Positions 10,550 through 55,346 of a stretch of 64,000 nt of DNA are shown here, piece by piece. Source of the stretch: Isoetes taiwanensis (lineage: Eukaryota > Streptophyta > Lycopodiopsida > Isoetales > Isoetaceae); the NCBI GenBank assembly GCA_021234155.1, contig JAJEKV010000004.1, forward strand, positions 124,001 through 188,000, in the 5' to 3' direction. Under the pieces are notes generated by a model. The model had not been told where the DNA came from and made no database searches. It saw nothing but the letters and a program-made list of their open reading frames with translations. Position numbers and translations under genes: made by a program. How positions within the stretch are numbered: position 1 is the stretch's first letter; each line of letters opens with the position of its first letter.

Positions 10550-12158
10550 TGTGACGCTCCCAGAATATATACGACCCGCGAACGTATACATACGGGGACT
10601 TTCCCCTCCCATGGCAATCATCTCACCATGAGCAGGGCCCTCCGTCTATTTCGGGCCATCTATGAAATGAGGCCCGAAGAAGGTTTCTGAAGGGGTCATT
10701 CGGCCCACGCCTTCAATGGGACTCCTACGTTGCGGAAGCATGAATACAAGGGTTAGCACACAGCATGAATATACATAAATAACCACCGCGAAGGGTGGCG
10801 AATCCATCCAATATACCAACGGCACAGAATATGCATCTAATCCTAAGAAAACACCGTAACCCGGGTTCTACCCCGGCTCAGACTCCCGGTGAGGATCGAC
10901 TGACGGCTGGGCCTCAAGGGATCAGCAGACCGAGTCTTGGCATGGCGTTGGCTGGCATAGAACATTGGCTAGGGTTGTCCACTCCATCCGCCCCTCCTGT
11001 GCACACTTTGCAGATGGGTCAATTCATGCTATGGCTTTGCTATAGCCTTAGGAGACGCAAACTTCGGGGGCATCACCCTCCCGAGCCTACTCCAGGTTCA
11101 TGGACGCTTTGGTCCGATGAGGCAGGAGTGGGAGGCGTCCCCTTCGGAGAATCCACGGTGGTTCCATGGGTGAGCTAGAGAATACGTGCGCATCAGCGAC
11201 CCCGCGATCCGTACCCGATTTACTCACCCTAAATCTACTCAAAGTGCAAGGTGCTCCATACGGATCACACCTCTACACCCGGGGAGTGTCGGACCCATAC
11301 CCGCCCTACGTGGCCAGGCCATCGGGCCTAGCCCATCAGAGGAGTCTCGGGGAGCCTTGTATGCCGTGCAAGACCCCACCCCTCATGTCACCACCGGGTG
11401 TTCCTTGTGCGGTGCTAAGCGCACCATAGCACCTAGGACCCGGTGGGTTCTTGTGCACCGCCGATTTTAATGGGACTCTGCGCTATCTAGGAGCATACTA
11501 CAATACACGGTTCAGAGGCCTCTACCCCCGTAATCCCCGCTTTGAGTCGATTAAACAAAGAACTAACAATCCATCCTTTCGAGTAAGAACCGTAATTGAA
11601 TATAAAGAGAACTTGTTTGTACAATCAAGGGTTAGTTTCTATGATTGATTCACAAAGAGAATGAGAGAGACCGGACACAACCAAGTGTTAACTAGAATTC
11701 ACATAGCCACCTACCTGAATTCTGGCTGGACTCGTTTCCATGGGGCGCCTCCATCTTTTGGGAGTTGAGAATTCAGCTGTTACTTCCACGGGGCTTATTT
11801 GTTATGGTGATCTTACGCAGTGTGTCGATGGCGCCCGCTCACGGCCTTCCTTGGTCGATCTTGAGGAGTCAATCCTGGGGATAGGGGTCAAGTTGGCATC
11901 CAAACTTGGCAATCCCCATCGCCCAATCGATTGGGGCAGGTGGGCCTTCCCAAATGGTAACTAGCCTAATTTCCTAGGTTATAGGTTATTATTATTAATG
12001 TGTTAAATTAGCATAGCTAATTTAATCCTTTTAAGGTAACCCCTAGGTTGCAATTAAGTTCCCATACCCCATGGTAGCGTGCCTTTAGGGAGTGGCGTGC
12101 TTGTATTTGTATGCGTGTCCCGTATAGTAGACCGTATAAATACATGGAACGCGTCACA
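10550..12158 (-). repeat. 3' LTR of element A
   Basis: Matches 22065-23664, with shared blocks such as ATGGCAATCATCTCACCATG and AATTCACATAGCCACCTACC. The pair differs mainly by many short indels in GC-rich spots rather than by scattered substitutions. It is preceded on the minus strand by a polypurine tract. Confidence 0.93.
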
Positions 12159-12171
12159 TTCTCCCCTCCTT
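12159..12171 (-). promoter_or_regulatory. Polypurine tract of element A
   Basis: On the minus strand AAGGAGGGGAGAA directly abuts the TGTGACG start of the 3' LTR. It matches the tract of element C (AAGGTGGGGAGAA), primes plus-strand DNA synthesis and fixes the element's orientation. Confidence 0.9.
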
Positions 12172-12684
12172 AAAAATAATCTTTGTCCTCAAAGATTGGG
12201 GTTAGCTAATTGAATACATATACGTAAAGCACTGAATTAGAAAATGAAGTTAAGAATATAACATTAATACGTTGAGATTATAGTAATTCGGACAGTAATA
12301 CATTGAAGTTAAAATATCAAAGTACAAGCACCAAGGTGCCCGATACAAACTTATGATCAAGGGAGTTTAGGACCGAAGTCCCATTTAAAACATTCTGACA
12401 GCAAAAATCACACATGTAGACAAAACCAATACGGGAAAAGTTGGGTCATCAGCAACCCTCTATACAAGGCAGGTGACGACTTGTTCATTGGCCTGCACAT
12501 AACCATATACCCGTAGGTTAATAATATGATTAAGTTGTGGTTGAAGGGACCACCCCCTACAATTAAAAAAAAAATTATCTAGAAGGGAATCTATCATGTG
12601 TACGGCTTGCAATTCATTGTGGCATAAGGAATGGTGGAGTTCCCCCGTAGCGGAATGAACGCAGTCTATTTACTAGATGCCTCT
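12172..12684 (-). other. 3' noncoding region of element A
   Basis: Lies between the chromodomain stop and the polypurine tract. AT-rich, with no coding frame or further repeat that I can see. Confidence 0.6.
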
Positions 12685-13239
12685 CTAGCAATTCGCGGTC
12701 ATGTCAACATCAACAATAAACCACGTCCTAGAGAACACGAAGGTGATCTCATCATCGGTTATTATTATTATATACGATGCGTCTACCCCTCTAAAACATG
12801 ATTCTCGGTCAATGAAGCCTTCAAGCTTACCGCCGGGAGCGGGGTTGATAGCATCGTTGATGGTACGGCCTTGAGATTCCCGCATGAAGTCCGGATAGTG
12901 CTTCTCAAGGTCTATCTTCATCACCCAGGTAGCATCTTCAACTGGTAAGTGCTTCCACTTGACCAAGTATTGCAACATTTGAGTCCTTCTGGTCTGTTTG
13001 TAAGCTCGATCAAGAAGAGCTTCGGGCATTATTTCCAGCTGCTCTTCAGTCATTTCTAGGAGGGTAGGGGTATCCAAAACCTCCTCTGGATCAGGGGTGT
13101 GTTGCTTCAGAAGACTCACGTGAAAGACCTTGTGGATTTTCAAGCGGGGTGGCAAGTCCAAGCGATATGCCTGTTCTCCCACACGTTCATTAATCCCGAG
13201 CGGCCCATTATCCGGGTGCCAACTTCTTACGATTACCAA
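12685..13239 (-). pseudogene. Integrase C-terminus with chromodomain, element A
   Basis: The frame contains the integrase tail (RLDLPPRLKIHKVFHVSLLK) followed by a chromodomain (RRTQMLQYLVKWKHLPVEDA, then TWVMKIDLEKHYPDF). Chromodomains of this family bind methylated histone tails and steer integration into heterochromatin. The same domain is present in element C, where YLVKWKHLPVEDATWV is identical. The frame is open to its stop at 12685, past the usual domain end, with a non-conserved tail. It lies at the end of pol just before the 3' noncoding region. Confidence 0.9.
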
Positions 13240-14360
13240 TTTTAAGCTTGGCTTGTTTTACTTTGATCTTAAGCCAAACCGATTTCGCCCACCTGGAAGA
13301 TTCGTGGGGTTGATTGCTTATCCGCTAGACTCTTCGACGATTGCGTCGCGGCCAATAAGTAACCCGAACTGGCCCACCAAGGCCACATTTCTAGAAGGAG
13401 TTGTTGAGAGACCTCCACTTTAGAAACAGGGATTATGCCACGCGGTCCGCAGTAAGACATTGATAGCCATAATTTATCATGAAGGGAGACATTCTAGAAG
13501 ACTCGCTTTTTAATGCTGTTGTAGGCTAATTCTACCAAGTAAATATAATCCAGCGCATTGTGATTTGTTTACTCCATACATAGCTTCTTAGCATATCTTC
13601 GATAATACGATTAACACGCTCGTTTGACCATCCGTCCGAGGATGGTAGGTCTGCACTCATGGCAAGCTTGGTGCGGATGGTGGCGAAGAAATCCTTCCGA
13701 ATGCAATCGACAAACTTAGGATCCCTATCCGATACAATTACTCGCGATCCCCCGTAATCTAAAAATTTCCTTTGCAAAGAGCAAGGCGGGCGGCGGTGTC
13801 CGTGGTGCGACATGGGGGAAGTGAGCCATCTTTGATAATTTGTCGACCACGACCATTAAGGCATCATATCCACGAGAGTATTGGAAGCCCCACAATGAAA
13901 TCCATGGTTATGACTTCCCACTTGGCGTTAGGCACATCCAAAGGTTGCAACTCCAGGGAACTCTTAATTGCTCAAGCCTTGGTTTGGACAAATCGACATC
14001 ATTTGATGTACCTAGCAATATCCTTCTTCATGGAAGGCCAAAAATAGCTGGAGCGGATCTTAAAATAAGTTTTCATAAAACCCGCATGTCCTGCTATAGG
14101 GCTGTTGTGTGTATCATGGAGAATCAGCTTTCGCACCCCTGAAGTCGCTGGAACACACAACTTATCTTTGTAATATAATAAATTGCCCTCCTTCTTATAT
14201 GAATGGAATGCTTCACGTTCTCTATCGGTACGGGCTTCCTTACCCAAACTTTTCCAAATATTACAGAATTCGGGATCTGTGGCCAAGGTTTGTTCTATTT
14301 GCTTCCCAAACTCGCTGGTGAGTGTGGAAATGGCATTACAATGGGTCCGGGTTATAAAGG
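13240..14360 (-). pseudogene. Integrase zinc finger and catalytic core, element A
   Basis: The HHCC region at about 14360-13999 includes VRKLILHDTHNSPIAGHAGF and SYFWPSMKKDIARYIK. The core continues in other frames: IVSDRDPKF carries the second catalytic aspartate near 13740, and NERVNRIIEDMLRSYVW, with the glutamate, lies near 13610. Frameshifts at about 13990, 13810 and 13530 break the gene. Order and sequence match element C's integrase at 51480-52500. Confidence 0.85.
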
Positions 14361-14930
14361 GATGACGTGACAAAGCATCCGCAACCACATTGTGCTTTCC
14401 TGGCTTGTATACAATCTCGAAGTCATATTCCTCGAGGAATTCCATCCATCTTCATTTGTTGAGATTGATTTGGCTGGGTGGATAAATAGCGGAGACTCGA
14501 TGATCCGTATCCGGCTGAAATCTTCTACCAAGAAGGTAGTGTCTCCAAATACGGAGAGCATTTAACAAGCGCCAGCAATTCCCCGGTCATGGGTAGGATA
14601 TCGCTGCTCGCATCATTCATCTTCTTTGAATCGTAGAAAGCAACAACTCTCCCCCTCACGCATTAGAACTCCACCAAGAGCTATCTTACTAGCGTCGGTG
14701 GCTACCGATTTATCCTTTTCCGGATCGGGCAAGGTAAGGATCAAAAGTGCGATGTTAAGGCATCCTTGAGCTTCCGAAAGCCGACTTGGACTTTTGTTTT
14801 CCAATGTTCCATCCAATCCTTTACTTTTCATGCCTTGTGAGATTAGTAAGAGGTGCGGCAATTGTTGCAAAATCCTTAACAAATTTCCGATAATATCCAT
14901 GAGTCCCAAGACCCTCACGAAACATTAGCC
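14361..14930 (-). pseudogene. RNase H, element A
   Basis: Gypsy RNase H with the first catalytic aspartate in SVATDASKIALGGVLM (near 14690) and the C-terminal signature FLEEYDFEIVYKPG, then HNVVADALSRHPF (14440-14360). The middle, with the YPTHERELLA-like region expected near 14600, is frameshifted. It follows RT directly and precedes the integrase zinc finger. Confidence 0.82.
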
Positions 14931-15720
14931 TGGAATGGGCCAATCCTTTACTTGCTTCTATCTTAGCGGGTCTGTAGCAATTCCTTCGCTGAGATAATAT
15001 GCCCCAAATAGTCTACCCTGAGTGGCGAACTTGCATTTAGAGAACTTGGCAAAGAGCTGATAAGCCTTTAGCTTTTGCAAAGTTAATCGAAGATGTTGTT
15101 CATGTTGCCGCAAGGTTTTACTATAGATGAGAATGTCATCAAAGAAAATGACAACAAAGTCATCCAAGTATTGGCGGAAGATGTCATTCATCAACCGCAG
15201 ATAAACGTTGTAGGGCATTGGTCAATCCAAAAGGCATGACGGTAAATTCATAATGCCCATATAGCGGTAAAAGCGGACTTATGGATGTCCTCTTCCTTAA
15301 TCCTTATCGATGGTAGCGAGCGCAAATCAATCTTTGAGAAATATTTTGCTCCTTGCAACCGGGTCCATAAGATCATACGCCTAGGCAAAGCATAGCGATT
15401 CTTGATGGTATGCTTATTGAGTTGCCTATAATCAATACACATCCTTAAGGAGCCATCTTTCTTCTTGACAAAAAGAATAGGAGCGCCAAATGGTGAAAAC
15501 TTGGGCGAATAAACCCCAAATTCGGTAACTCTTGTAGTTGTTTCTTAAGCTCGCTAACTCAGGAGGACTCATTGATACGGGGCTTTGCTGGTAGGCTTAG
15601 TACCGGTTCAAGAGTTATCTCACATTCTACCCCTCTAAAAGGGAGGAAGTTTGTGGATCTCATATCGGAAAAAGATCGCTAAATTCGAAGAAGGGTAGCA
15701 ATGTCCGATGGTAAAGCGTC
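14931..15720 (-). pseudogene. Reverse transcriptase, element A
   Basis: Polymerase domain in several frames. [19 protein letters not shown] and [16 protein letters not shown] (about 15490-15370) mark the fingers. [12 protein letters not shown] and [13 protein letters not shown] follow. The catalytic motif FVVIFFDDILIYSK (near 15130) has FFDD where YVDD/YLDD is usual; element C also has FFDD, so this is a family feature. LFGAYYLSEGIATDP closes the domain. Confidence 0.85.
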
Positions 15721-15796
15721 GATTATTTGCCGCTTTGGAGTCCGACTCAATGGAAGCAAGTTTAATGAAGCAAAGAAGTTCATTCGCGCATAGCTT

Positions 15797-16250
15797 TTCC
15801 TAGCTGCTTTCATTGACATTGATTTGCATGACTGAGTGTAATGAATCACCTTTTATCGTCACACGTGCTCCATTAGCGGCATTGAAGGTGACCTCCCGCT
15901 TTCGCAGATCTATGTGGGCCCCGCACGCTAAAAACTCCATTCCCACAATAAGATCATATTTGCCAATGTCCATTAACTCGGCACCCAAGGCAACGTGTTT
16001 TTTGGCAACCGTGCATTTTAAGGTTAATACGGCGCCATGAGTGTGTGCGATCTTACAGCTAGCTAATGTGACCGGGCTTAGGTCTGGGATTTTCAGCGTT
16101 ACCGGTAAAGACACGGGCCATTCTAGGAGAAGCAAAATTATGTGTACTACCCGTGTCCATCAAAATTATGAAGGGCTTACTGTCTACTTGGCCTATTGTA
16201 GAAATAACGGAAGGCTGACTTTCAGCGTTGCCTGTTTCTATAGCGGCAAG
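15797..16250 (-). pseudogene. Aspartic protease, element A
   Basis: Retropepsin-like domain with the active site in FIILMDTGSTHNFAS (near 16160) and the later GKYDLIVGMEFLACGAHIDL segment, spread over two frames that overlap near 16060-16135. It processes the Gag-Pol polyprotein and sits between the gag knuckle region and RT. Confidence 0.85.
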
Positions 16251-16456
16251 AATATGAGACGCACCATGAATGTACTTTCGGGAGCCTCGTCTTCCGCAAG
16301 CAAGATTGACTCCAAATCTTCCCAATCCAGGTCGGCCATGGCGGTTGAGTAGCCTGCGTGGACGCGGCAACAGTCGCATGAAGTGTCCAGGCCTCATGCC
16401 CGTGGAGCTGTTCTCCGGCCTCTTTAGGAATGGACTGTAAGAGGCCCCGAATTTCC

Positions 16457-17500
16457 TTACCAAACATTGTTACGCTTATCCGGGCGTGCTAAAAGCAACT
16501 TTCTTCTCCAAGGTCCATAAGAATTGTGCTGAGAGGGCCCCGGACTTGGGGAACGGGGTTTGTAAGGTGTGGACGGCCGTGGCTGCGAGTAAGGAGCAGG
16601 TCGCGGATACTGGCTCCTTGGCGTGTCTTCCTCAAGGCTTAATGCCTTAGCTTCCGCCTCTGCTACTGACTTTGGGTCGATAGCCTTGACCATTCGTTTA
16701 ATAGATGGGGCCAACCCTTCAATGTAGCCCTCTACTGCTCTTTTCTCATTCATTCCTGGCACATACAACCTCAAACGCATGAATTCGTCAGTGTAGGCCT
16801 GCACGGACATGCCCTTCTGTTCCAACCTGTAGAAGGTCTGAATCTGTTGGCATTTGTGCGCACGAGGCACGTAATGCGATTTAAAAGCCTTAGCAAACTT
16901 CCTGAACTTGCATCTGCTCCTATCCAGGTGTTTAGCTACGCGTAACCCTTCCACCAAACACGGGCACGCTCCGGTAAGGTTCGTGGTGGCGACCTTCCCT
17001 GTATCTTTCTCCTCGTCATTCCATAGGACTTCCGAATTCCTTCATTTCGTCCAACCAAGATTCCGCGATTCAAGCCTCCTCACGGATTTCCCATCAAACC
17101 GAGCCAACTTCCGGTTCTTCCATATACTAGTGATAGTCAGTATCAACAGTTTTTTGGTATTCCTTATCCTTACGCCTTTGAATGGTCATTGTCCGATAGC
17201 GAGGAACCGAAGAACCCGGGTGGTTGAATGGGAGGAAGCGGCGCTATCCTTAGAGGAACTTCGTTGACGCTTAGCATGAGTCCTTCTGCATGCAGTGGGG
17301 GGCTAGCCGGGAGGAGATGGCTGTTGTGCAGGTGGACTCAATGGTCGTGGAGGTAATTCCGGTCCGTCCTCCTGAGTATGTGGCAGTGGATTGGTATGCA
17401 ACACATAAGCCTGTAACTCGCCGAGTTGCCTTTTCATTAACATCAATTCCTGTTCAGGGGTGAGCCTACTGGCGTTGGAGGGTGTTGCCAAGCCGTTCAT
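16457..17500 (-). pseudogene. Gag, element A
   Basis: The N-terminal part (17500-17303) starts MNGLATPSNASRLTPEQE and is proline-rich (PELPPRPLSPPAQQPSPPG). After a broken stretch a retrotransposon gag domain follows (FRKFAKAFKSHYVPRAHK, QAYTDEFMRLRLYVPGM), then a low-complexity S/P/R/Y-rich tail to 16457. The frame near 17000 (NDEEKDTGKVATTNLTGA) aligns with element C's gag. The zinc-knuckle region near 16400 is frameshifted and I see no intact CCHC. The start was chosen by its match in layout to element B's gag. Confidence 0.82.
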
Positions 17501-18486
17501 TACGCATAATCGCCTATAGGAATCATTTATGAAAATATAAGCAGATTTACATTAATGTACAATCCCTTTTTAAGTTAATCGAGACAAAAGTATATACAAA
17601 CAGAAAACAATATTTGTATTTCATTCAAGTTGAGTACAACAACGGGTTGATTGATACATGGATTGAGACAAAAGTAGGTATGATACAATGGGAACTTGTA
17701 AAGTTCTACTTGCACACAAACAGAAGTAAGCACAACAAAAAAACATAACGGAAGAGACCAAGCCTAGGGGTTGGCGAAGGGGTACAGGATCGCGTAGCGG
17801 GTACTCTCCCGTACAGCTCGGACGAGTTTATAGCGTGCCCAGGCTTGGACAATGATTGCTTGGTACTCCCATGTTGGGCTGATAATCGAAGGTTAAAGAG
17901 CCTTCTTCATTGCATAAAAGAGTTGCCAAAGATGGTCGTTATGCCCTCAAGGCTTCGTGCTGGTCATATTCCAGTAGTCCTGTGTACGACCACGTGGTCA
18001 TCTTCAGATCCTCAAAGCTCGATCCTCGAGGATGTTAACTATCTCCAGCCCTTTGTCGTGGTCAGAGTTCCCCGGTGGCGGTGGTTCGGGTTTCATAGCC
18101 TTCCTCCCACTCTGGATATTCACCATATCTCGGCCATAGTCCTGGTCGGGCGGGCCCGATCGCCCCTCCTAACCATATCGGTGATTCTCTCCTCATATTC
18201 CCAAATGGTTTCCTCTGCAATATAGTTGGAATAAATAGAGAACATTTTTGTAATTCCATTATTTTCTAAAGTTTTAATACTTTTGAAGAGGATGTCATAT
18301 AAAAAACACACAATCCAATAATACTCCTCAAGAGAACTTTGTATTTAATAAGTAAATAAGGTACACCATTTGTCAATATGGTCCATTCAATTGCCAATCG
18401 AAAATCCCAGAACACACATAGATATATATATAAGAAAAACTAGCAAAACATATATATATATATACATTTCTCATAGCAAAATCATA
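17501..18486 (-). other. ORF-B to gag interval, element A
   Basis: About 990 bases without a convincing gene. Minus-strand open pieces at 18311-18062 (for example YEERITDMVRRGD) may be eroded coding sequence. An AT dinucleotide run lies at 18421-18470. This is probably the gag leader. Confidence 0.4.
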
Positions 18487-19893
18487 CTAGGAACTAGGCC
18501 CTGCCTCTTGATCCTTAGCCCTAGGAGGTGGTGGAGGCGGTCGGTGTCGCAGCAGAGTAACCCCAGGGTCTACTGTGGCAGCCGCAACGGATGCAACCTC
18601 TGGTGGATAGGCAACGGCCAATGGGGCTGCCGTGAGGAGCTTCATGCCCATCCAAGGCGCAATGTCCTGACCCAAGGCCGTCAGGGCAAGATCCCGTCGT
18701 ACGAGTACATACGTAAACGTACGATAGGGAAGCTTCTTGTGGCCGGCCAGTGTAGAGAGTGCACGGAGGCCCCACCATGAAGCCTCAGCCTCTGGCGCTA
18801 GATCTCGGGCTATGAAGAGGACTTGTCCGTATTTGAAGGCCGACAAAAAGAAACGGGTAAGATGGTTACCCAGCACTTTCCCTTGCGAAGTCTCAGATGC
18901 TGCCACTTCTTTATCCAGGTCCATGGGGACTTCTTCCTCCTTGAGCTCCCTGTTCCCTCCTCCTTCTTGTGCGCAGGGTTATGGTATAAATCTTCACCCT
19001 CATCATCTGAGTCGGAGGGAACCTCCACCATATTAATGTTTGGGACGTGAGGTCCCATAGCCGTGAAGGCATCCAGTGCTGGGGCCGGTTCCCGCATCAG
19101 TTAAGTCAACAAGACGTAGTAGAGTCTCCGCCGGCTCTAGAGTCTCCCTAACGGAACTGACTAAGGAGCCTGGTGCACCTCCCGAGGAAGCTCGGTAGAA
19201 GTGAAGTCGATGAAGTCATCCATACAATACTCCGCAAGCTGGTCAGAGTACATGGTCTTTTGCGCTAGCGCCGAATCGGCCACTACGTGATACGCCCGGA
19301 TAATATCATCCAAGAGAAGGTATTCGCCGGTGATAAATAACCGGAAGGCCGTCTAACCCCGACAAGCCTATAGATGGGTCACGGGCGCGGTGGTAACTCC
19401 TCCGCTAGTTTCCTTTCCAACGGGCAAAGTCGCCCATTCCGATATGCTCACATCCCTCCTCGGAGGATTCCCCCGCAAGCTTGCCCTTCTCTGCCGGGCA
19501 AGGTTTCATCCTCAACGTATTGGTCCATGAGGATGGCTAGAGCGAAAGTAGCTTCCAGATACCGCTGCCCCTCGATCTTTGGACCACAATGGTAGGTGTT
19601 TACCCCATCGGAGTTTCCCTTCGTGACATCATAAGCATGTGTGTCCCCGCCTAGCATCTGCCGAACTATCTCCCGCCCAAATACAAGTGGGGGAGGATCC
19701 CTAGAGGAATACACATGAGGAAGCATTTCCTCCATGTAAAGTCAAGGAATCCGGCGAGTCCGGATGCCCGCGCATGTTGGCAAGGAGATCTATGCGTTGG
19801 CATAGCAAAGGCTGTGAAGCAGTTGAAGGGAACCTGTGGATCCCATTTCTCTCCATCAAGGTACCGTGCAAAGAAGGTTCATATGGCAGCCAT
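18487..19893 (-). pseudogene. ORF-B, element A copy (unknown conserved protein)
   Basis: Function unknown. The start ATGGCTGCC at 19893 was chosen because the other copies also begin near MA. The reading changes frame several times: RYLEATFALAILMDQ near 19540, TGEYLLLDDIIRAYHVV near 19300, DFIDFTSTELPREV near 19200, then an S/D/E-rich basic linker, and a C-terminal block (RALSTLAGHKKLP, YVLVRRDLALTALG) ending in a proline run and PSS at 18487. Each block has a counterpart in the B and C copies (DFIDYSYQEVPREV; ALSGFGQHAKI; HIILFKRSVALYSLD). It lies between the H3-like gene and gag. TTTAATAAG at 19963-19972 (minus) could be a weak TATA element. Confidence 0.75.
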
Positions 19894-20006
19894 GGCGCTT
19901 AGAAGGGAGGAGAGAGGAAAAGAAGCGCTTAAAATAACTTACGGTCCCTTTTTAAGCCCCTCTTATTAAAGCCGACGCCAAGATTTTTAATTTAAAAAAA
20001 AAAACA

Positions 20007-21321
20007 TTAAACTTTTAATTCAAAATAAAAGCCTTTTTTATTAATTATCACAAAAAAAAAAAAAAAAAAAATATGTACAAACGCGATCCCAAGAAGTAGA
20101 TACTCAAGGTTGCTCCCCCGTATCCTACGGGCGAGGGCTAAATCCTTAGGCATTATGGTGACCCTCTTTGCGTGGATAGCGCAAAGGTTGGCATCACCAA
20201 AAAGTGCTACCAAGTAGGCTTCAGCAGCCTCTTGGAGCGCCAAAATTGCAAAGGTCTGGAAACGGAGATCGGTCTTAAATTGCTGTGCGATCTCCCGTAC
20301 CAGCCTCTGAAAAGGCAGTTTCGATCGAAGGTCCCGGACTTCTGAAATTTGGCGGATCTCCCGCAATGCCACGGTACCGGTCGGAACCGGATGAGGCTTC
20401 CGGCTGCGGGGCGAGGCCCCCACGATGTTGGCACCGTTTTAGCCCCAAAGAACCGCCGGAGTTATCCACTTCCGCCGCCTCCGGCCGGAGCTGGTCTTTC
20501 CCAAAAGCCCCGGACAGTCTTTAACTTATCCTTGTATTGACTGCCGCCTTATGGGCAACTCCCTTCCTCCGAGCTTACGCGGTCGGATCGTCGGTTTTGG
20601 GTTTGAGCCACTCCCGGATGCACCTCCCTCCCCTGTTGGTCCCGCTGATCTTGTCGGTCCCGGCCATCTTGCTCCAACTTTCGCTCTTCCCGAAGCCTCC
20701 TTAAGTCTTCTTGGATCTGAGCAAAAAGCTGGGCTGCGGCACGGCGATTAAGTTCATATGGTACCTTGTGGCGCATAACCCATATCTATCTGAATAGTTG
20801 TCAGATAGTCTATGCTAATGTCGGGGATTTCTCCCCATACAAAGCCGCTTGGAACCCTCATGCCATTGGTATGGGGAACCTCAATGGCTCTGCCATCAAT
20901 GACGGCAAAGCCGCCCCGAGGTACTTCCCAGTACTCCTACCCAGGAAAGCTGGGCTGTCCAGCCACCGCTCCTCGGTGGTCGCCCTCCCCGCAAAACCCT
21001 ATCCCCAGTCGGCCTCCCGCCCCCGACATCTTCCTCCTCCGTATGGCCTTCCCTGCTCGAGGATAAAATTTGATGAGCATCATTACCACGTGTTGCTCAA
21101 CAAGGGTATATGGGAGTCGGGCGAGGTTCACCGGATGAGGAATGGCTCGAGAAGTGATAGACGTGATATGGAATCCTATCGTTGTTCTCAAACCTATTGA
21201 CCAGCTCATCCAACAAGATGTCGATGAGGGCTGGGTCAGTAGCCATGTGCTTAGCAATCATGGCGTAGATCTCCACGATGCTCATGGTGGACGGATCCGG
21301 AGCGCTCTTGGTAATGGCCAT
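20007..21321 (-). pseudogene. Histone H3-like fusion gene, element A copy
   Basis: The C-terminal third (about 20378-20115) encodes a near-canonical H3 core: [77 protein letters not shown]. Loop 1 has ordinary H3 length and lacks the CENH3-type RW signature. Two compensating one-base slips near 20350-20320 scramble the lysine-56 region; the shifted frame still reads KFQKSG. Upstream pieces encode MAITKSAPDPS (start at 21321), an alpha-helical SIVEIYAMIAKHMATDPALI segment and a charged coil (RRAAAQLFAQIQEDLRRLRE). The tail is not ARTK here. At least two frame breaks lie between 21150 and 20424. The frame runs on past the core through a homopolymer to 20007. Confidence 0.88.
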
Positions 21322-22050
21322 AGCGGGTAGTGCGGCACCGGGCGGCAAGGGGATGGCAAGGGGGCGCTTAAGAGGCACAAAGCACAAGGGCGCAGGGTCA
21401 AGGTCCCGTCCGGTGGCGATGGCGAGGGCTGCTCAGCGGTTGGAGGCTGAAGCAAAAGCAAATGACAGAAAATGGTTTGCTAAACGGCCAATTAACTTTT
21501 AAAATTTCAAAATTTTTTCTTATTAACTTCAAAATTTTATTATTAAAAAAAATTATACGGCGGAAATACGCGCCACATACGGCCTTGGAACCGATGGCAT
21601 TATATCGGTTTTCGCCTCGGGTGTCGCCGAAATGCAAGCGGCGCTCGAAGTTGACTCGGCGGGCCCGTTGACTGGACTGGTCCGATTTATGGGCGCCGAC
21701 AAAGATTTCGGCGCTTTTAACTTGACTGCAAAGTTTACAAAAGCAAGCGGCGCTCAATTCGCTTTTGGGCCTGCCCTTGACTATTTTTAACCGAGTTGAC
21801 GCTTTTAGGGTAATTCGAAAAGTACGCCCAATCCAATGGAGCCATCATCTTTGTCATTTGAGTTACCCATCGGGCACCTGCTAGGCCTCCAATCTTGGCC
21901 CCTCCACTTCAAAGCTACAATTTCTTAACTTAACCTAACACCAAGCCAAACAACAAAGAGAACTAACAACACATTGACTTAGCCTCCTCCTAACTACCGT
22001 ATACGAAGTTAGTGTTTGGCCAGTGCTATGATTTCGAACAACCAAATCAC
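21322..22050 (-). other. 5' leader of element A
   Basis: Between the primer site and the H3-like gene. It contains AT-rich sequence (21490-21560) and a GC-rich stretch with repeated CGGCG motifs (21560-21720). No gene seen. Confidence 0.5.
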
Positions 22051-22062
22051 GGCTCGATACCA
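22051..22062 (-). promoter_or_regulatory. Primer-binding site of element A (initiator-Met tRNA type, imperfect)
   Basis: The minus strand reads TGGTATCGAGCC just inside the 5' LTR. Element C has the exact TGGTATCAGAGC complementary to the 3' end of plant initiator-Met tRNA. This copy has lost or changed a base. Confidence 0.8.
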
Positions 22063-22064
22063 CC

Positions 22065-23664: not shown

Positions 23665-23669
23665 CCGGC

Positions 23670-23725
23670 CTTGGCCTTGAGACCCTGAACCAGTGTTCCT
23701 GGCTGCGTCATTAATGTTGTTACTT
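23670..23725 (-). pseudogene. Start of element B gag (right of element A)
   Basis: The minus-strand frame NINDAARNTGSGSQGQGR runs into the CCGGC duplication and continues at 10549 as QHQWQPRNLFGREH. The remaining 200 bases up to ORF-B (23726-23925) show no gene. Confidence 0.6.
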
Positions 23726-23925
23726 AGGTTATACATTATTCAACCTTATTTACAAGTCAATTATTGTTAGGTATAAAAGAAATCATGTTCAAATTCCAAC
23801 TTATAAGTTTAAAGACAATTTTGGCAATTAATATATGAGAGTTATACATTACATAGGATATATGATAGTACATAGAACTGAAGTCATTTTTATACATTTA
23901 GAAGATAAGTGAAAGCAGAAAGTGT

Positions 23926-25426: not shown

Positions 25427-26220
25427 TGAGTAGAGATGGGTGTAAAAGATGGTTTGGAAGAACTAATGAGAACCTGAGAAATTGCCTAAGATGGTGAGAG
25501 CAATCTATGTGAAGGAAAAATGGCAAATGAGGCCCCCGTTTTATAGATTGGGGTTGCCTCAGGTTCCGTGCACAAGGGTTCTTGATCGAACAGACCTTTG
25601 TTCTAAGGCTATAGATCTCCAAACAAGGTACCATGAAGTGCAAATTTAAGTAAAACAAGGCAAGAAATACTACATGGCAGTTTGTTGGGTTAAATTTGAC
25701 CAATCTAAGTCAAAATGGGTCAACCCGGGTGGGTTCGCACGGATGGCCTCTGCGTCCGCGAACGCAGACGCATTTGGCGGGGACCCGCCCAGTTTGGGTG
25801 ATTTCTATGAAAAACTGAACTTTTCTAAGGGTTGTAAGATGCTAACATGCCTATTTGGCTCGATTCTAATCTAGTTAGCAAGTTATTTCATGCAAAATAG
25901 CCATCTAAAAGTGCTATTTCAAGGCAACCGGGTGGGTTCACGCGGATGGCCTCAAGCGTCTATGAACGCAGACGCGTTTTATGGACCGGGCCCGGTTTGG
26001 CCATTTTTGAACCAATTTGACTAATTTTTGCGCTAAAACTTATAGTTTATCAATTACAAGTACTCTAAGCATAATACAAAAGATTATACTACAATCTAAC
26101 TTACTTTAAGACATTTTCATGCCAAATTATAATCAAATTACAGAGAGAAGAAACTTATATATATATATGCCAAAAGGTCAATTATATAGGAAAACTTTAA
26201 TACTTAAGTTAATTACAAAA
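25427..26220 (-). other. H3-to-ORF-B interval of element B with paired direct repeats
   Basis: Two direct repeats, about 25722-25796 and 25925-26000, share CCGGGTGGGTTC, CGGATGGCCTC and GAACGCAGACGC. Each contains inverted segments (GCGTC...GACGC, GGACC/GGGCCC), so each could fold. They occupy the same interval as the single hairpin repeat of element C. No gene seen; the ORF-B promoter lies at the low-coordinate side. Confidence 0.7.
25539..25546 (-). promoter_or_regulatory. TATA box for ORF-B, element B
   Basis: The minus strand reads CAATCTATAAAACGGGGG, a strong plant TATA box, 113 bases before the ORF-B start at 25426. Elements C (H3-like) and C (ORF-B) have the same spacing. Confidence 0.65.
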
Positions 26221-42800: not shown

Positions 42801-44871
42801 TACTTTGTTGTACCCGACTTTCCCAAGAGCTTTACTTGGAGCAAAGCGACATACAAATGGACAAAGCGTGAAGCGTATTAGGGATTATGCCATCGTGTGG
42901 GTAGAATGTACTTTGTGACTCCCTCCGCGGGGTGAACGATTCTATTTGGCGGATGTTGCTAAGCAATGTACACGAGCTTCGTCTTTTGAAGATCGAGAAC
43001 TGTTGCTGGTCATTTTGTGTGAGGCGTTCAAGAATGCATGCATCAAAGCATTATGATTGTGAATGATAATTGAGTGGCTAGAATGCCTACGAGAAGCATC
43101 ATCGTGGGGTATGCCCGTCAATTGCGACACTTATTTGCTTCAATTACATTTGGAATGTAACCCACTCTATCCACTTGATATTTGGAAGGAGTTGGAATAT
43201 AGGATGGTCGAAGATTTCCTAGACCGGGTTGCTTATGATGCTTATTCCAAGACAAGGTCACTTAAGTCGTTATGCTATTGACATGGCACTAATGGATGTG
43301 GAGGATCATATGCTGTCGGTTGGAAGGAGCACTGGCGAAATGGGCTTCAACTTACGAAGCGTGCTAGACACAACCACACTATTCGAGGGAGGAAATGATG
43401 TATGTGAGTATGGATAAAGTCCTATCGATTCGGAGAAGTTGAACATTGATCGGCGGTCGGTTTACGATCTTTGTTCTCGACCATGTGATCGATAAGACTG
43501 GTGGTGGGGTCTTCGTGAATGGCCCCTGGTGGAACCGGAAAACATATCTATATAACACTCTCCTAGAGGGTATGCGTGCAAGGGTTGGATTGCTCTGGCG
43601 GTTGCATCTTCGGTATTGCGTCGATTATTCTTGCAAGGTGGTCGAGCGGCTCATTCGGCGTTTCAAGATACCCATAGGGGCACATGAAGCATCTACTTGC
43701 AATATTCCAAGTCCGAATTGGCAAGACTCATCCGAGCATGTCGGTTGATTGTATGGGATGAGGCACCAATGATGCACAAATGGATATTTGAGGCGATGGA
43801 TAGAACATTGAGAGATGTGATGGGCAATGAGCAGACCCGTTTGGTGGGATTCCAATACTATTGGGAGGGATTTCCGACAAATACTACGAGTGGTTCCTAA
43901 AGGTTTGCAAGACAAATCGTAGAAGCTTCTCTAAAAGCGTTAAATATATACGGGATAGTGTGAGAGAATATAAACTGACAATCAACATGCGCGTCATGAA
44001 TGCATTGGGCTTAGATGCGCTTGAACAACAAGCATTTGCTGACTACTTACTAAGTATAGGAGATGGCCGAGAACCAACCTTTCCGGAGAAGGGTGTTGAC
44101 ATGGTCCATCTGCCACAGGATATATGCCTTGGCTCAGATGATGTGGATGATTTAATTCAGGACATATTTCCTGATATCCAACAGAACTGGAAAGAAGTGA
44201 TTTTCTGGACACATCGTGCAATACTATCGCCTTTGAACCATTTTGTCGATGAGATCAATAAGAAGGTGGCGTCTCTCATCCCTGGAGAGACGACAAATTA
44301 CTTTAGTGCTGATCGAATCATAGACACAGATGGCCAGCAAGCAGGTCTATATCCCATTGAGTTTCTTAATGCACAAACTCCAAGTGGTGTACCGCCCCAC
44401 GAGCTAAACCTAAAGGTGGGAATGATTGTAATGTTGTTGAGGTCTACATCGTTCAAGAAGGGCCTGTGCAATGGAACACGATTGATTATACGAAAGCTGG
44501 GAAGACGTGTCATTGAGGCACAGATAGTAACTGGGACACACGTTGGTGACACTGTGCTCCTATCGCGCATTCCAATTGTGCCTACCGATTCAGGTTTGCC
44601 ATTTCAGTTTGAAAGGGTGCAATTCCCTTTGCGGCCGGCCTTTGCCATGACCATAAACAAGTCCCAGGGCCAGACAATGCATAAGGTGGGGATATATCTT
44701 CCAAAGCCTGTCTTTACTCATGGACAATTATATGTGGCATTCTCAAGGGTACAAAATCGACAAGGAATTCGGGTTGCTATCAAAGACCCACCATCCATGC
44801 CTCAGGAAGACGCCACTACAGTCTCAAGGTTCACAAGGAACGTGGTTTACACGGATGCTTTGTGATGGAGG
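39830..44871 (+). pseudogene. Helitron Rep/helicase (RepHel)
   Basis: Rolling-circle replication initiator fused to a PIF1-like helicase. 39830-40741 is a basic, low-complexity N-terminus (ARKRRLARKRKLTWRARARA). The Helitron-like N domain follows at 40790-40960 (GKVALPHFPTPPP, YNNALAFASL). The Rep part includes IVVHSKDGGIRHIGLCIHH, RYMTQLYQDAMAIV and the HUH motif GLPHVHLL (near 42040). The two-tyrosine motif YLYKYIYKGPDM is near 42455. The helicase begins near 43440; its Walker A is shifted by one extra C (near 43520). The C-terminal half (43861-44865) is open: FAMTINKSQGQTMHKVGIYL and FTHGQLYVAFSRV. Several frameshifts make it a probable pseudogene. Confidence 0.9.
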
Positions 44872-46347: not shown

Positions 46348-47862
46348 ATGGCTACGAAGCCTTCATCAGTTGGTATAAGCGCCTCCCCACATCACCGAAG
46401 TAGATGTCAATATAGTATTCCAAGTATTTCAAAAAGAATTTGACCTTTCAGCAACCACGAACTCAATCCTTTCACCCGACAAGTCCGAGGAATTCCAAGA
46501 GAAAGTTGTCCCTAGCTTACTGAAGATACCGCCATGCATAGGGTACTTTGTACCAAGGACCGCATTACAAACAGCCCAATCATGTACCCAATATTGCCAA
46601 GGCATTGAGGAACAGAACCAACCGCTTACCAACCTACATGACCCTAACAAGCAATGGCAAAGTCTTCTTCTCCTACAACACAGACCTTAGCGCTATATCT
46701 AGTATATATAGAAACCGTAATAGGTGAACCATCAATTCAGCCGCTAGAAGTCACACCCTTGGGACGCTAAAGCCCGTGGACGAACGCCTCCCTTGAATAC
46801 GAAAGAGACCAGCGAAGCATCTGAAGAGAGTGAAGACTCGAGCAGGAAAGCGGAGGATGACATAGAGGTGGACCCAGGAAGGAGGAGGCGCCGGAAGCGG
46901 AACAAGACATCACCCGCCGGAGCCGACAAAAAAGACCACCACCGAGGATTGCACAACCAATTGGGGGGAATAACAAGTCTAGCACCGGTCATAGTGAAGG
47001 ACAGGAATACTTAGCGCTAAACGACATCAAAACCTCCCCCGAATGAGGGGCCGAGGCTACCGCGTCGATGAACTCCTTCACCTCCCCACGGCAGCGGCGG
47101 ATCTAGGACTTCATCGACCAAGAAACGGAAGATTTTTTTCAGTACAAATACGAGAGGCAGCTACTTCTACGGGACACACCATCTCGGACGTTTGAAGCTA
47201 CCAAGACTATCGTGAGGTATGATGTCGGAGGAACTTCCTACGAGGAGGAGGAGTTTATAGCACCGAGGAGCAGATGGGAATAAGGGGAAGACAACAAGAG
47301 TACTTCAAGGGGAGTCTTCTTCCTCACAAGAACAGATAGCAAAATTCCAAGGGAGAGCCACAAACGACAAGTGTCTGAACGCTCTTCCACGATTACAAGG
47401 AATTAGTTCAAATACGTAGACCGGTATGCATCAAGGCGCGGGGGCACCTCGGGGGGGCGTGGAGGATGCTGAGGGAGCAGCACTCAAATATTACCTTCCT
47501 CCTCCTAACGGTAGAGTAATAATATTTCAAGCGCTTCAGCCCACGCGAGAAGGAAGGCATGCAGATCTTTGGTAGCACTTCGAGGATTTGGCATGCACGC
47601 ACGCCTATCAGAAAAGGTGGACCATGTCATTTTAGTGAAGCGGAAAACAGCCTTGGGCATTTTCGACTTTGCAGTACCCCACCTTCGACAAGGTAGGTTG
47701 GCAGTAACAGCAGCTCATACCTCCCATAGACGGGTGGAAGAGCTAGCATCCGCCATCCGGGGGGGCAAAGGGATATACTCGGGAACTTGGAAGTACAGTA
47801 GGTACACCCAAGTAAAGAGAAGTTTCGAAGACAACCCGTCTTACCGGCGATTTCAAGACTAG
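46348..47862 (+). pseudogene. ORF-B, element C copy (unknown conserved protein)
   Basis: Function unknown. ATGGCTACGAAG at 46348 is the likely start. Frames shift repeatedly. EVDVNIVFQVFQKEFDLSAT (near 46400) matches the AFHVFDHVFDLHAT block of the B copy, and DFIDQETEDFFQ (near 47110) matches DFIDYSYQEV. A basic/acidic linker holds PGRRRRRKRNK. The C-terminal domain at 47569-47862 is open: LRGFGMHARLSEKVDHVILV, KRKTALGIFDFA, AIRGGKGIYSGTWKYSRYT, matching GFGQHAKISSHTDHIILFKR in the B copy. Total length (about 500 codons) equals the B copy. It is separated from the H3-like gene by the Helitron. Confidence 0.78.
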
Positions 47863-48189: not shown

Positions 48190-49330
48190 GATAAAAAGGC
48201 ATTACGTTGTCCAAGCATGCGCGGTGGGTTGGTGGGCAACGCCGATTCCGCAAGCATCAGCCGGAGGGCAGGAAAAGACAAGAAGAGGAGCAAGAGAAGG
48301 AGATCCTCCAGCCCGGAATCTTAAACTCAAGTTGATTTCGGACTCGACTCGAGGAGGAAGAGGAAGAAGCGAGGGCTTTCGAGGCAACGGATGGAAGGGG
48401 CGGGGAACACCCCAGATGGACGACAAAAGAGACACGGGGGCCTCGACTACCGAAGAAGGTAGATTCGCCTTTGGGCAATGTATGGAAGGCCGAAGCTGGA
48501 ACAGTTCTCGGGAGAACAGGTCGGGATTGGAAGCGCAGAGGCATGGCTGGGACGAAATGAGTGAGTGCAGGAAGCGCTTTATAGCATGAAAGATAAAGAC
48601 AAAGGCAGAGTTGCAACAGCCAACTTGAAAGGAGCCGCACGGATTTGGTGGAAGGGTTATGCAAAGGCACACGGCTTGAGCAGGGATGCTTGTAAGTTCA
48701 AGAAGTTTGCAAAAGCCTTCAAGCGCCATTACGTCCCAAGGGAACATAAGTCCAGCATGATGCAGCAGTTTTACAGGTTGCAGCAAGGCAACAAATCAGT
48801 CCAGAAATATACAGAGGAATTCATGAGGCTAAGGCTGTATGTGCCGAAGTTGGGAGAGAAGCATGCAGTAGAAAGCTATATTGAGGGGCTGAATGAGGAG
48901 ATCCGCAAGCTTGTGAGGGCAATAAACCCTAGGACAGTATCAGAAGCGGAATCCAAGGCTATAAGCTTGCAGGGGTCAGGACCTCAGAATAGCGGGCAGA
49001 AGCAGCAGTACTTCCAGGATAAAGGCAAGGCGACAGGAAGCTATAGCCCCAGGGCAGCCAGTCCAGGTCCAGCTAGAGCCCCATATGGTGGGAACCAGGG
49101 GAAACAGCAGGAGAAGAAGCAGGTGTCCTTCAAGGACAAGCAGGAGGGGTCAAACTACTCCAAAGCAGTGCGATCCTTTTTGCAGGCAATGCCCAAGGAA
49201 AAGAGGCAGGAGTGCATAGAAAAGCAACTGTGCTTCAGGTGCTTCCAGGCCATAGGGCCAGCAAAGGCCCCTCGTCATGAAGTGCGACTCTAAGCGAGTT
49301 GGGAGATTGGGGCATGCTCGTCCAGGCGGC
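48190..49330 (+). pseudogene. Gag, element C
   Basis: The best frame, 48565-49293, has a retrotransposon gag domain (GRVATANLKGAARIWWKGYA, FKKFAKAFKRHYVPREHKSS, YTEEFMRLRLYVPKLGEKHA) and a Q/K/P/S-rich tail. It ends at the start of a CCHC knuckle (KQLCFRCFQ) whose second half is frameshifted at 49245. The upstream part is broken but rich in R/G/E. It aligns with element A's gag over the whole capsid region. Confidence 0.85.
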
Positions 49331-51479: not shown

Positions 51480-52820
51480 CCGAATCATCGGTGTAAGGAA
51501 ATTGATCCTCCACGACGCGCACAACAGCCCAATAGCTGGCCATGTGGGATTCATGAAAACATATTTCAAAGTCGCGCAACTATTATTGGCCGGGAATGAA
51601 GAAGCAAATAGCTCGCTACATCAAGGAATGTCGGCTATGCCCGGCAGAGAAGGCGGGCGACTTCGAATTCGGGGGCATTAGAGCCATTAGCGGTGCCAAA
51701 GCGCTAAGTGGGAGGTAATCGGCATGGACTTCATCCGGGACTCCCAAGGACGGCAAGAGGGGAAGGATGCCTTGATGGTAGTGGTCGACAAGTTGTCTAA
51801 GATGGCACATTTTGTGCCTTGCGGGACCACGATACGGCTATGGATACAACAAAGCTCTTCACCAAAGAGATCTTGAGGCTTCATGGCATGCCAAAGGAGA
51901 TCATCTCCGGCGAGGGATCGAAGTTCATGAGCGCCTTTTGGCAAGACCTCTTTGCGACAATCCAGACGAAGCTATCCATGAGCACGGCATATCATCCTCA
52001 GACGGATGGCCAGACGGAGCGGACCAACAGGATTTTAGAGGACATGCTACGAAACTATGTCTGGAATAAGCAAAGTATGTGGGAAGAATTTATTCACTTG
52101 GTGGAGTTTGCATACAATAGCACCAAGCAGGAATCATCCCAAATGTCGCCGTTTATGATCAATTACGGCTATCAGTGCCTAACTCCAGACACTTGGCACA
52201 ACCCCGTGTCAAAAGTGGAAGTTTCGCAGCAGATGTTGGCGGATATGCAGCAGCTTGTGGAAGAGGTTCGAGGGTATCTGCTAGCAGCAAGAAGTCGACA
52301 AAAGAGCATCGCCGACAAGCATCGAACAGTAAGAGAGTTCAAAGTTGGAGATGATGTTTGGCTCAAGATCAAGGTGAAGCAGGCGAAGCTCAGGATCGGG
52401 AATTGCAAGAAGCTTGCTCCAAGGTGGGCTGGACCTTTCAGAATAGTCGAGAGAGTAGGTAATCAATCCTACAAGCTAGAATTGCCAGCACACCTAAAGA
52501 TTCATAAGGTCTTCCACGTGAGTTTGTTGAAGAAGCATACTCCAAATCCAGACGAAGTCTTGGATTCGCCAACGTTGTTGGAAATGACGGAGGAGCAGCT
52601 GGAAATAGTTCCAGAATTGATTCTTGATAAAGCTTTCAAGAAAACGAGGAGATCAGAATTCCTCCAGTATTTGGTCAAGTGGAAACACTTACCAGTGGAA
52701 GACGCGACGTGGGTACTTAAGAAAGATTTAGTAAAGCAGTATCCACAGTTTATGGAGCAATGGGACGGCAAGGTCATCTCCGAAGAAATCGGCTCAGGCA
52801 TGTCGATTTGTGTAGGTTAA
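51480..52820 (+). pseudogene. Integrase with chromodomain, element C
   Basis: The zinc finger region near 51495-51640 (VRKLILHDAHNSPIAGHVGF) is broken. From 51819 a 333-codon frame is open to the stop at 52818: LSMSTAYHPQTDGQTERTNR with the catalytic glutamate, then NRILEDMLRNYVWNKQ, KIKVKQAKLRIGNCKKLAPR and LKIHKVFHVSLLKKHTPNP. The chromodomain follows (FLQYLVKWKHLPVEDATWVL, KKDLVKQYPQF). The first aspartate (IGMDFIRDSQGR, near 51725) lies in another frame. The chromodomain is the H3-tail reader of this element. Confidence 0.92.
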
Positions 52821-53674
52821 TTCTTGTGTAGTTAAGATTAATCTACGCATGCCACCTACGCTTAGTATGGGTCGCATGCGTTGTTACCGATGATGGGACC
52901 ACTACGGTGATCTCTAGGGCGTGGTGTAATGTCAATGTAGGCATGACCGCGTTTCCGCTTGGGCGAGTGGAAGGTAGATTAGAAAGTCTACTTCTGTCCC
53001 ACGGAAGTAGACGACCTCGAGAGAAAGGAGGTCATGAAGGAATGCATTGATAGGAAAAGCACCTTTAGCCCCATATATGCTTTGATAGGAGGAATCTATC
53101 CTTCGCGCCCCCCACGCGAGAAGGATATCCTCCACGCTGGGCAACTAGAGGTGTAGGCATGAGCGGCATATAGGCATATAGGCGCTGTCTCCGCGGCCAT
53201 GATGGAAGATTCACCCTCTTCCTACGCCGGGAGATTAGCCATGCATCCATGTAGATAGGTGGGGTGGTCACCATATAACCAAAATTTTATTTAATAATTA
53301 AATGGTACTAACGTAGTGTCGACCTGCAGGCCAGTAGAGCGCTCCGGAGGGCAAGGAGGTCGGGTTACGAAGACTGGCAACACAAATTTTGTTGGAATGT
53401 GTTGCAAGGAATGAAGAGTACCTCGGACGTTAATTCTAAATTTTGATAAACTTAATTGTAATGTTAAGTGAATTTTGGAGTAATCTGTTAGTAATGTTGT
53501 GAATTGATAAGTTATGTTATAATACAACAATGTGATAATGTCATAAAAATATTACCTTAAGGTAATTTTAATAAATGTGTAGGAATTATAGTAGCGATCG
53601 TATGTATCAAGTTGTTGCAGGTTAGGTTGATCCCAAGGTGGGGAGACCCACGATGCTGCGGACAGCATCATTTC
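52821..53674 (+). other. 3' noncoding region of element C
   Basis: No gene seen. A second polypurine-like AAGGTGGGGAGAC lies at 53635-53647, 40 bp before the true tract. Confidence 0.6.
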
Positions 53675-53687
53675 AAGGTGGGGAGAA
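53675..53687 (+). promoter_or_regulatory. Polypurine tract of element C
   Basis: AAGGTGGGGAGAA directly abuts the 3' LTR TGTGACG, as in element A. Confidence 0.92.
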
Positions 53688-55341
53688 TGTGACGTTCCAG
53701 CACAGTATACGCCCCAGGACGTATACCGTACTGCCTCGTCACGCGTACACGCCACTCCAGCTGACGTGTACGCTAGCGTGTAGCCAGGTGAGTAGCCCTA
53801 GGGGGCAACTTGCCAGAAATATGTGCAACTATTAATGTGCACATTTTCCAATGAACACATTAATGGAGCACACATTGCCAAGTGGGCCACACCCATAGGT
53901 GCAATTAATGTGCACATTTTCCAATGTACACATTAATGTGGGCACACATTGCCATGTGTGCACATTTGGCCACCTAGCCCTTAAAGGCAAGTGGGCCCAT
54001 TTCCAATTATCCCACATGCCAAAAGGGGATAATTGGAAACCCTAGCCAACCCCCTTGTCTATATATGGTAGGAAACCCTAACTAGCCCAATTTTTCGATT
54101 TTAGGGCTTGAGAACTTCTGTTTTGGCTGCCTCAGACCAAAACCGCATCCCGAACTCGACTAGGAGAATTGCATCCTTAGTTTCTCTAGATTGAAGGCGT
54201 TTTCCAGGATGGTCGAGCTTTCGGTCGGGAGGAGCCCCTCAAGGATCGGTATTTGGCCAATTAGATAGTCTAAACCCTATTTTAGTCATTGAATCAAGTA
54301 GGTTTAGCCTATTAGATTGGCCATAGCAGGCCTCTAGATCTCTAGATATAGATTCTAACTAAAGAACCTAACTCTATGTTGTAGATTAGACCTTGTTCTT
54401 TTAGTTCTTCCCATGATGTATATGGATGATGTATCTCTATGAACTCCTTGTATTGGGAAGGGGGGGTAGAGACCTAAAAGCTTTGTAGTTGATGCTCCTA
54501 GAGTAGCCTCTCTAGCACACCTTTGTGGATTGCCTGTGCACAAGAGCCACAGGGATGTGGGTGAAGGGGCCGTGAGGACGGGCCGAGAAGGAGGTTCGTG
54601 TCCCGACTCTTGAACGATCCCTATGGTGTGTTAGTGCTACCGGGGATCATTGTGACTAGGTCTAATGGCTTACCACCGAGTCTTGGGTAAGGCATGGGCT
54701 CGACAACCGTGAAGTGGTGTACACTTTCCAGGTGGGTTGGTCGCAAGGCGGTGGCCCTCTAGTCACCTTGAGTCAGCATGTAGACCTCGGAGGGAGTGAT
54801 CCCCACCGCCCCCCATCGGGCGGGAGATGGAACCCGGGGAATAGCCCTTTTGGCTATGCATCCCGGGCGGGCCATCCAAGTCCCGACACTTTTCAGACCA
54901 CTCATAAAGTGTGCAATGTGGAGGGGCGGATGGAGTGGACAACCCTAAGCCATGCTTATATGCCCGGTCAAATTCATTGCCATGAATTACATGCGCAATG
55001 AACTGGAGACCCAAAGCCGTCGGTCATCCTTTGAGTCTCGAGCCTTGGGTAGGATCTCCTATGTGATGTGCTGATATTTGTCTATGCAGATATGTGGAGG
55101 ACCATCCTTCGGGATGGTCACATGATGTTGATGTATGTGCTACTGACATGTATGTTTACGCTTCCTCAGCCAGGTAGGCCCTGAGGAAGACGGGGTGCAA
55201 TGACCCTTCCACTCTTCCCACTGGAACCCGACACGGTTGCGGTGTCATGTGGAGGGCCCTCAGATTAGCATGGAGCTGGTATGGGGATGAACTCCTGTTT
55301 GTATACGGTGAGTGCACCGTATACGAGTAGGGGACGTCACA
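53688..55341 (+). repeat. 3' LTR of element C
   Basis: Partner of 32335-33975, ending GGGGACGTCACA before the GCAAG duplication. It keeps the TATA box and the tandem enhancer-like repeat. Confidence 0.94.
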
Positions 55342-55346
55342 GCAAG

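Follow-up and report, generated by a model that had tools for sequence, protein, structure and literature searches.

Can a long terminal repeat (LTR) retrotransposon carry a histone H3 gene of its own? The question is raised by a stretch of 64,000 nucleotides of the Isoetes taiwanensis genome (contig JAJEKV010000004.1, positions 124,001 to 188,000 of the forward strand; hereafter the window, whose positions are used throughout), in which an initial annotation had placed a gene with an H3 fold between the 5' LTR and gag of three Gypsy elements, A, B and C. Both the fold and the place are borne out by comparisons with Protein Data Bank (PDB) and Pfam entries and by tblastn, and we regard it as nearly certain that this H3-like gene descends from H3 and is a gene of the elements themselves, maintained by selection. 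A diverse group of chromodomain Gypsy elements has this H3 variant as a regular part.

H3-like genes within three Gypsy elements

The elements and their H3-like genes, which belong to three classes (I in A, II in B, III in C), are arranged as follows.

10550-23664, minus strand: element A, a chromodomain Gypsy element sitting inside element B (self-blastn, flank comparison, gag, integrase and chromodomain matches)
10550-12158 (3') and 22078-23664 (5'), minus strand: LTRs of A, 1.6 kb each, about 90% identical (self-blastn)
10545-10549 and 23665-23669: target duplication of A, CCGGC, 5 bp (flank comparison)
20007-20423, minus strand: H3-like open frame of A, fold at 20115-20399 (PDB histone H3, E 5.9e-41; Pfam PF00125, E 1.1e-32)
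23665-28352, minus strand: 5' part of element B, starting with TGTGACGTTCC at 28352, split by the insertion of A
10285-10549, minus strand: continuation of B beyond A, the segment between ORFX and gag (aligned with 2572-2849 of genomic copy L049, 67%, E 9.9e-14)
26221-27366, minus strand: class II H3-like gene of B, 381 codons plus stop, with two in-frame stops
32335-55341, plus strand: element C, a Gypsy element with later insertions (self-blastn, flanks)
32335-33976 and 53688-55341, plus strand: LTRs of C, 1.6 kb each, about 90% identical (self-blastn)
32330-32334 and 55342-55346: target duplication of C, GCAAG, 5 bp (flank comparison)
33978-33989, plus strand: primer binding site of C, TGGTATCAGAGC (sequence inspection)
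34951-36135, plus strand: decayed class III H3-like gene of C, tail MARTKQTGKPKK at 34951-34986, fold pieces at 35873-36135 in several frames

The fold of A is nearly canonical and matches the PF00125 profile, the check that the initial annotation had proposed; the N-terminal part upstream of it is broken, and its remnant start, MAITKSAPDPST (21286-21321), is of the same type as in the genomic copies L027 and L028. In B the gene consists of the tail MARTKCTARK (27366-27337), a long charged insert and the H3 fold (26496-26224), the tail being in frame with the fold save for the two stops; an H3 N-terminus likewise still opens the same gene in C. The B fold is 57% identical to that of A (tblastn E 1.1e-25, aligned at 26493-26230, minus strand), and it matches histone H3 in the PDB with E 1.9e-31, the best 60 of 177 matched chains all being named H3. 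AlphaFold, run without an alignment, returned a pLDDT of 46 for the B fold and 35 for ORFX, and the models were not used.

A and C each have the LTR pair, primer site and 5-bp target duplication of Ty3/Gypsy elements, so that two full elements stand as first described. The primer binding site of A, TGGTATCGAGC, is one base shorter than that of C, which we take to match the initiator tRNA. Kimura two-parameter (K2P) distances between the paired LTRs are 0.114 for A and 0.098 for C, and both are therefore old insertions. The limits first drawn for A and C hold, yet B, which had been ended at 23670, runs on past A: L049 matches 25741-23666 and then directly picks up again at 10549-10285, from which it follows that A inserted into B. 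Beyond A, only a short stretch of B was found.

A second extra gene, ORFX, is placed between the H3-like gene and gag. The succession of H3-like gene and ORFX is found in A, B and C, and gag and pol come next in A and C.

18604-19863, minus strand: ORFX remnants of A (tblastn with ORFX of copy L024, best E 1e-34)
23926-25161, minus strand: ORFX of B, an open frame of 411 aa without a Pfam match
47551-47850, plus strand: ORFX remnant of C (tblastn with ORFX of B, 36%, E 3e-11)
16460-17032, minus strand: gag of A (tblastn, 51% identical to gag of C)
48565-49293, plus strand: gag of C (PF03732, E 2e-18)
12685-13756, minus strand: C-terminal part of the A integrase with chromodomain (PF00385, E 2.7e-08, in 12685-13239; tblastn)
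51819-52820, plus strand: C-terminal part of the C integrase with type II chromodomain (PF00385, E 8.2e-10; cage residues)

The ORFX proteins of classes I and II are 25% identical over 243 positions (E 1e-13). Within C, between the H3-like gene and gag, a Pif1 2B domain is encoded at 43861-44865 (plus strand), a segment that looks like a Helitron insertion.

Copies across the genome and selection on them

We searched the I. taiwanensis assembly (1,658,258,908 bases, 1,110 contigs) for further copies. A degenerate CAIHAKRVT pattern occurs at 2,090 sites, a count that takes in the host H3 genes and leaves out class III (CTVHAKRVT); the reversed pattern, used as a control, occurs at 0. Together with the PDB E-values of A and B this rules out chance similarity, in agreement with the initial annotation. 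Among the 150 matches listed by the Pfam search, the first 15 score as full canonical H3, and all 8 that were excised are indeed canonical. The element copies are scattered over many contigs.

Class I was sampled as 20 of the remaining 135 matches, spread down the list with long open frames favoured. In 15 copies the open frame has a recognisable start, from which the proteins measure 400-459 aa: an N-terminal domain of type MPRFKL, METVKQ or MANTKS comes first, then a charged linker and the H3 fold; the fold is identical to host H3 at 75-79 of 89 positions in all 20. The usual H3 tail is, as we read it, replaced, although a STGGK-like piece is kept, and 19 of 20 copies have R for K36. Upstream, 14/20 copies have a primer-site motif, and gag lies 0.8-3.5 kb downstream of H3, usually about 3 kb, in 17/20; a protease downstream in L011 makes an 18th, and L012 and L017 have neither gag nor protease in the stretch. 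L015 has the order H3, gag-protease-reverse transcriptase (RT), RNase H-integrase-chromodomain, which after H3 is that of a Ty3/Gypsy chromovirus (RVT_1, E 7e-39; Ty3_capsid; RVP_2; RNase H; rve; Chromo, E 6e-08).

For class II, the B protein used as a query gave 111 matches including itself, 108 of 28,801 candidates having been scored; the majority cover almost all of the query, and stops are frequent among them. Our sample comprised 20 stop-free matches, of which 19 start with a recognisable H3 tail (the exception being L040). Across these 19, the residues of the tail are retained as A1 in 17, R2 in 18, T3 in 18, K4 in 19, Q5 in 15, T6 in 18, A7 in 12 (Y in 6), R8 in 17, K9 in 18 and S10 in 0. 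The codons vary synonymously between copies (R2 is written CGC, CGA, CGG, AGG and AGA); the tail has therefore been kept by selection and does not merely reflect recency. ORFX, gag, protease and RT follow in two of the three class II downstream stretches (L049, L051). The third, L050, holds a class III copy nested at the place expected for the class II ORFX, with an LTR about 81% identical to that of C.

Class III copies were chosen by gag and blind to H3: with the C gag as query, 150 of 15,601 candidates were scored, about every seventh was taken to give 20 copies, and only the 1.8 kb located 2.5-4.3 kb upstream of gag was fetched. An H3-like gene is present there in 19/20, L070 being without it in the stretch examined; since the query was the gag of the C family, this result is limited to that family. 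The start was recognised in 16 of the 20 and begins MARTKQT in 15 of these, with R8K9 retained in 12; at residue 10, 14 copies have P, L063 has R and L064 has S. Thus, of the H3 tail, ARTKQTARKSTGGK, residues 1-9 are mostly kept in classes II and III, and not further. The inserts of the two classes are also alike immediately before the fold.

Sampling in the two directions, with gag downstream of H3-chosen copies and H3 upstream of gag-chosen ones, places the gene in the element and, with the LTR pairs and target duplications, rules out a host gene that happens to lie beside it. The outcomes that the initial annotation had named as counting against its proposal, namely no H3 profile match or relatives lacking the gene, were not encountered, L070 excepted. 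Between its 5' and 3' LTRs the element has, in this order, the primer site, H3-like gene, ORFX, gag, protease, RT, RNase H and an integrase with a chromodomain.

A comparison of synonymous and nonsynonymous changes across copies, likewise proposed at the outset, shows strong purifying selection on the H3 folds, at dN/dS 0.03-0.06. The ratios are mean dN over mean dS (NG86) for pairs with dS < 2, many pairs being dropped with dS saturated or zero. For class I the fold gave 0.034 (94/190 pairs, 20 copies); in the 15 copies with a start, fold, N-terminal domain and linker gave 0.037 (46/105), 0.114 (27/105) and 0.237 (36/105). Class II gave 0.060 for the fold (92/190) and 0.161 for the N-terminal part (146/190). 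In class III, 12 folds could be read from the 20 copies, 10 of them stop-free, and 9 of these 10 gave 0.064 (16/36). dS between copies is about 0.8-1.2, and dS to host H3 is saturated.

As in an H3 fold, no insertion or deletion occurs in residues 45-133 in any of 40 copies, 20 from each of classes I and II. C110, H113, R116, T118, D123, L126, R129 and I130, which we take to make H3-H3 and DNA contacts, are retained in 19-20 of 20 in both classes. Patch 86-90, presumably the region that steers chaperones, is altered in class I at 86, 87 and mostly 89, and in class II at 87, 88 and 90 and mostly at 86 and 89.

Two further elements lie in the window. A younger LTR element at 547-9805 (LTR K2P 0.027) has a Gypsy-type gag match and no significant H3 match, and 29657-30933 (minus strand) holds an integrase zinc-binding domain with more integrase-like sequence, a separate Gypsy-like remnant.

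A possible role in chromatin

Plant transposon silencing runs largely through histone H3 marks. To judge by its sequence, the element H3 probably acts as a histone in chromatin. We infer that it is expressed, that it enters nucleosomes, which is likely because the core contacts are conserved, and that it opposes silencing; the three functions suggested in the initial annotation are likewise inferred. It would pair with host H4 and enter nucleosomes, those of host chromatin as well as those formed on newly made element copies. A class I nucleosome would then bear a large foreign N-terminal domain and be without K4, K9 and K36, and so would not be markable for silencing in the normal way. In classes II and III, the tail A-R-T-K4-Q-T-x-R-K9 without S10, ending a long charged arm, would interact with, or tie up, the host proteins that write and read H3K4 and H3K9. 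The outcome would be a weakened silencing of element chromatin. That selection has kept the gene working suggests that the elements interfere with host silencing chromatin; we put the chance that anti-silencing is the main job of the element H3 at somewhat less than even.

Several observations weigh against this reading. The H3-like genes of the window are all broken: the frame of the N-terminal part is lost in A, B has its two stops and C is frameshifted. The class I and II samples lean to open, high-scoring copies, class III having been picked by gag; such a bias lowers dN/dS, yet it can hardly yield dS near 1 with dN 0.03. Class II has lost usual H3 residues (R42 to H, K53 to H and F84 to V in 20/20, the alignment before residue 44, and with it R42, being unsure; K56 is kept in 0/20). 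In class III, K9 is replaced by V in two copies (L066 and L068, tail ARTKQTARV), and residues 7-9 have diverged in two others (L062, L064). As we read the alignment, which is ambiguous in the tail, K4 and K9 are missing from their places in class I; classes II and III keep K9, and one anti-marking mechanism therefore cannot fit all classes. Finally, ORFX and the class I N-terminal domain are left unexplained. No relative of ORFX appeared at E 0.001 among the best 8,000 database candidates (best PDB match, E 0.93), and no Pfam family matched ORFX of L024 or of B. For the class I N-terminal domain, none of 2,423 database candidates proved a relative at E 0.001 and nothing fell below E 0.04 in Pfam or below 0.2 in PDB sequences, and hhalign found no likeness between it and ORFX.

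These two proteins have a place in what we consider the strongest rival, although still an unlikely one: a chromatin tether or integration guide, in which the H3 part would anchor the element complex and serve as a dock for the N-terminal domain, for ORFX or for the chromodomain of the element itself. Selection on the foreign N-terminal domain, at dN/dS 0.114, agrees with such a use. So does the chromodomain: of the cage residues, W45 is retained in both A and C, and I and L take the places of Y24 and Y48 (positions that we assign from the letters of HP1), which makes both chromodomains plant type II. For this type of plant chromovirus chromodomain two descriptions give the binding partner as unknown (PMC6317226, PMC3350952), and the element H3 tail could be that partner. 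Against a tether, a nucleosomal protein spread genome-wide would guide poorly.

It is slightly less probable that the elements build a chromatin of their own, in which class I nucleosomes could not be silenced in the usual way and class II/III nucleosomes, with K4 and K9 and without the S10 switch, would be read by the chromodomain of the element's integrase, a selfish code apart from that of the host. A free decoy is a weaker possibility again. Staying outside nucleosomes, the protein would use its tail and fold to soak up H3K4/K9 enzymes, readers or H3 chaperones. The selected ARTK-x-T-x-RK tail on its long arm in classes II and III would suit a decoy, as would the altered chaperone patch; however, class I has no such tail, and a decoy would not need the retained H3-H3 and DNA contacts.

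We think it improbable that the gene encodes a packaging protein, binding and compacting element cDNA in the particle or at nuclear entry. Some virus-encoded histones bind and compact DNA, and here the gene is the first past the LTR and its linkers are basic, but H4 partners would be required and selection on K4 and K9 would go unexplained. More doubtful still is that classes II and III derive from or mimic the centromeric H3 variant CENH3 and so steer insertion or persistence at centromeres. The motif REIRHFQxCTNLLI is reminiscent of plant CENH3, of which a longer loop 1 is a hallmark; however, loop 1 is not longer in the 40 class I and II copies, which have no insertion or deletion relative to host H3, and the PDB chains that best match the B fold are, as said, all named H3. 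An inert captured passenger, amplified without function as in fungal hAT copies inactivated by repeat-induced point mutation (RIP), has practically nothing left to recommend it, for although H3 capture by transposons is known (PMC6710886), the passenger reading is contradicted by dN/dS 0.03-0.06 at dS of about 0.8-1.2 and by the synonymous changes in a conserved tail.

Origin and known systems

In a tree of 128 H3 folds (102 of 120 listed database proteins, 24 element and 2 host sequences), class I and class II form separate clades (100/93 and 100/99). The sister of class II is P0073, a 376-aa protein with an H3 fold from the fern Adiantum nelumboides, at 96/88 and on a long branch, with columns few and the bootstrap unsettled. 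The tree fits two captures of H3 as well as a single one with deep divergence. The database proteins also include large sets of long H3-like proteins from European Nucleotide Archive (ENA) contigs (P0020, P0055, P0042, P0026, P0034, P0049 and P0005-like), some of them opening with a MARTKQTARK or MVRTKQTARK tail and closing with an H3 fold, a long insert lying between the two; P0020 represents 201 sequences. They group apart from the quillwort classes and could represent H3 genes that are mobile in other organisms; P0020 used as a query found no relative among viral contigs. In P0038, P0039 and P0106 about 200-290 residues of a different sequence come after the H3 fold.

A retrotransposon with its own H3, selected to keep or lose K4 and K9, would show an arms race inside the nucleosome. 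The elements offer a natural set of many H3 variants and a candidate for what the orphan type II chromodomain of plant retrotransposons may bind. They may also be easy to miss: according to the I. taiwanensis genome paper, its repeat library was purged of plant-protein matches (PMC8566536), a treatment that could remove H3-bearing elements, so that their H3 genes would pass for genes of the host. The word histone is absent from the main text of that paper and of the I. sinensis one (PMC10541799). In line with the initial annotation, which knew of no LTR retrotransposon family with H3, we found no LTR element with a histone gene in the open PubMed Central (PMC) literature, a coverage outside which most subscription papers and bioRxiv fall.

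The closest known systems share some features with the Isoetes elements. Plant type II chromoviruses have the same gag, protease, RT, RNase H, integrase and chromodomain without the first and last cage residues, and no H3 gene or ORFX in the descriptions covered (PMC6317226, PMC3350952). In orchids, Gypsy elements carry an AlkB RNA demethylase gene; these too are plant Gypsy elements with a host-derived extra gene thought to be anti-silencing, although the gene differs. They came from a screen of 121 angiosperm genomes and 25,565 consensus sequences, section 12 of which names no histone domain (PMC9289625). H3 itself has been taken up by hAT DNA transposons of fungi. An identity of the Isoetes elements as hAT transposons was rejected, these being LTR elements with RT and integrase, with inverted repeats not searched copy by copy. 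In Pseudocercospora and its relatives, an H3 coding sequence was likewise captured and amplified, there by a hAT element and with the extra copies RIP-inactivated (PMC6710886). In Pyrenophora tritici-repentis, a hAT transposon with terminal inverted repeats carries, like the Isoetes elements, an H3-like gene with N-terminal tail insertions and a further gene of unknown function; its 26 copies are very similar and the authors suggest drift (PMC3538342), whereas the Isoetes genes reside in LTR elements, at about two thousand motif sites, and are old and under purifying selection.

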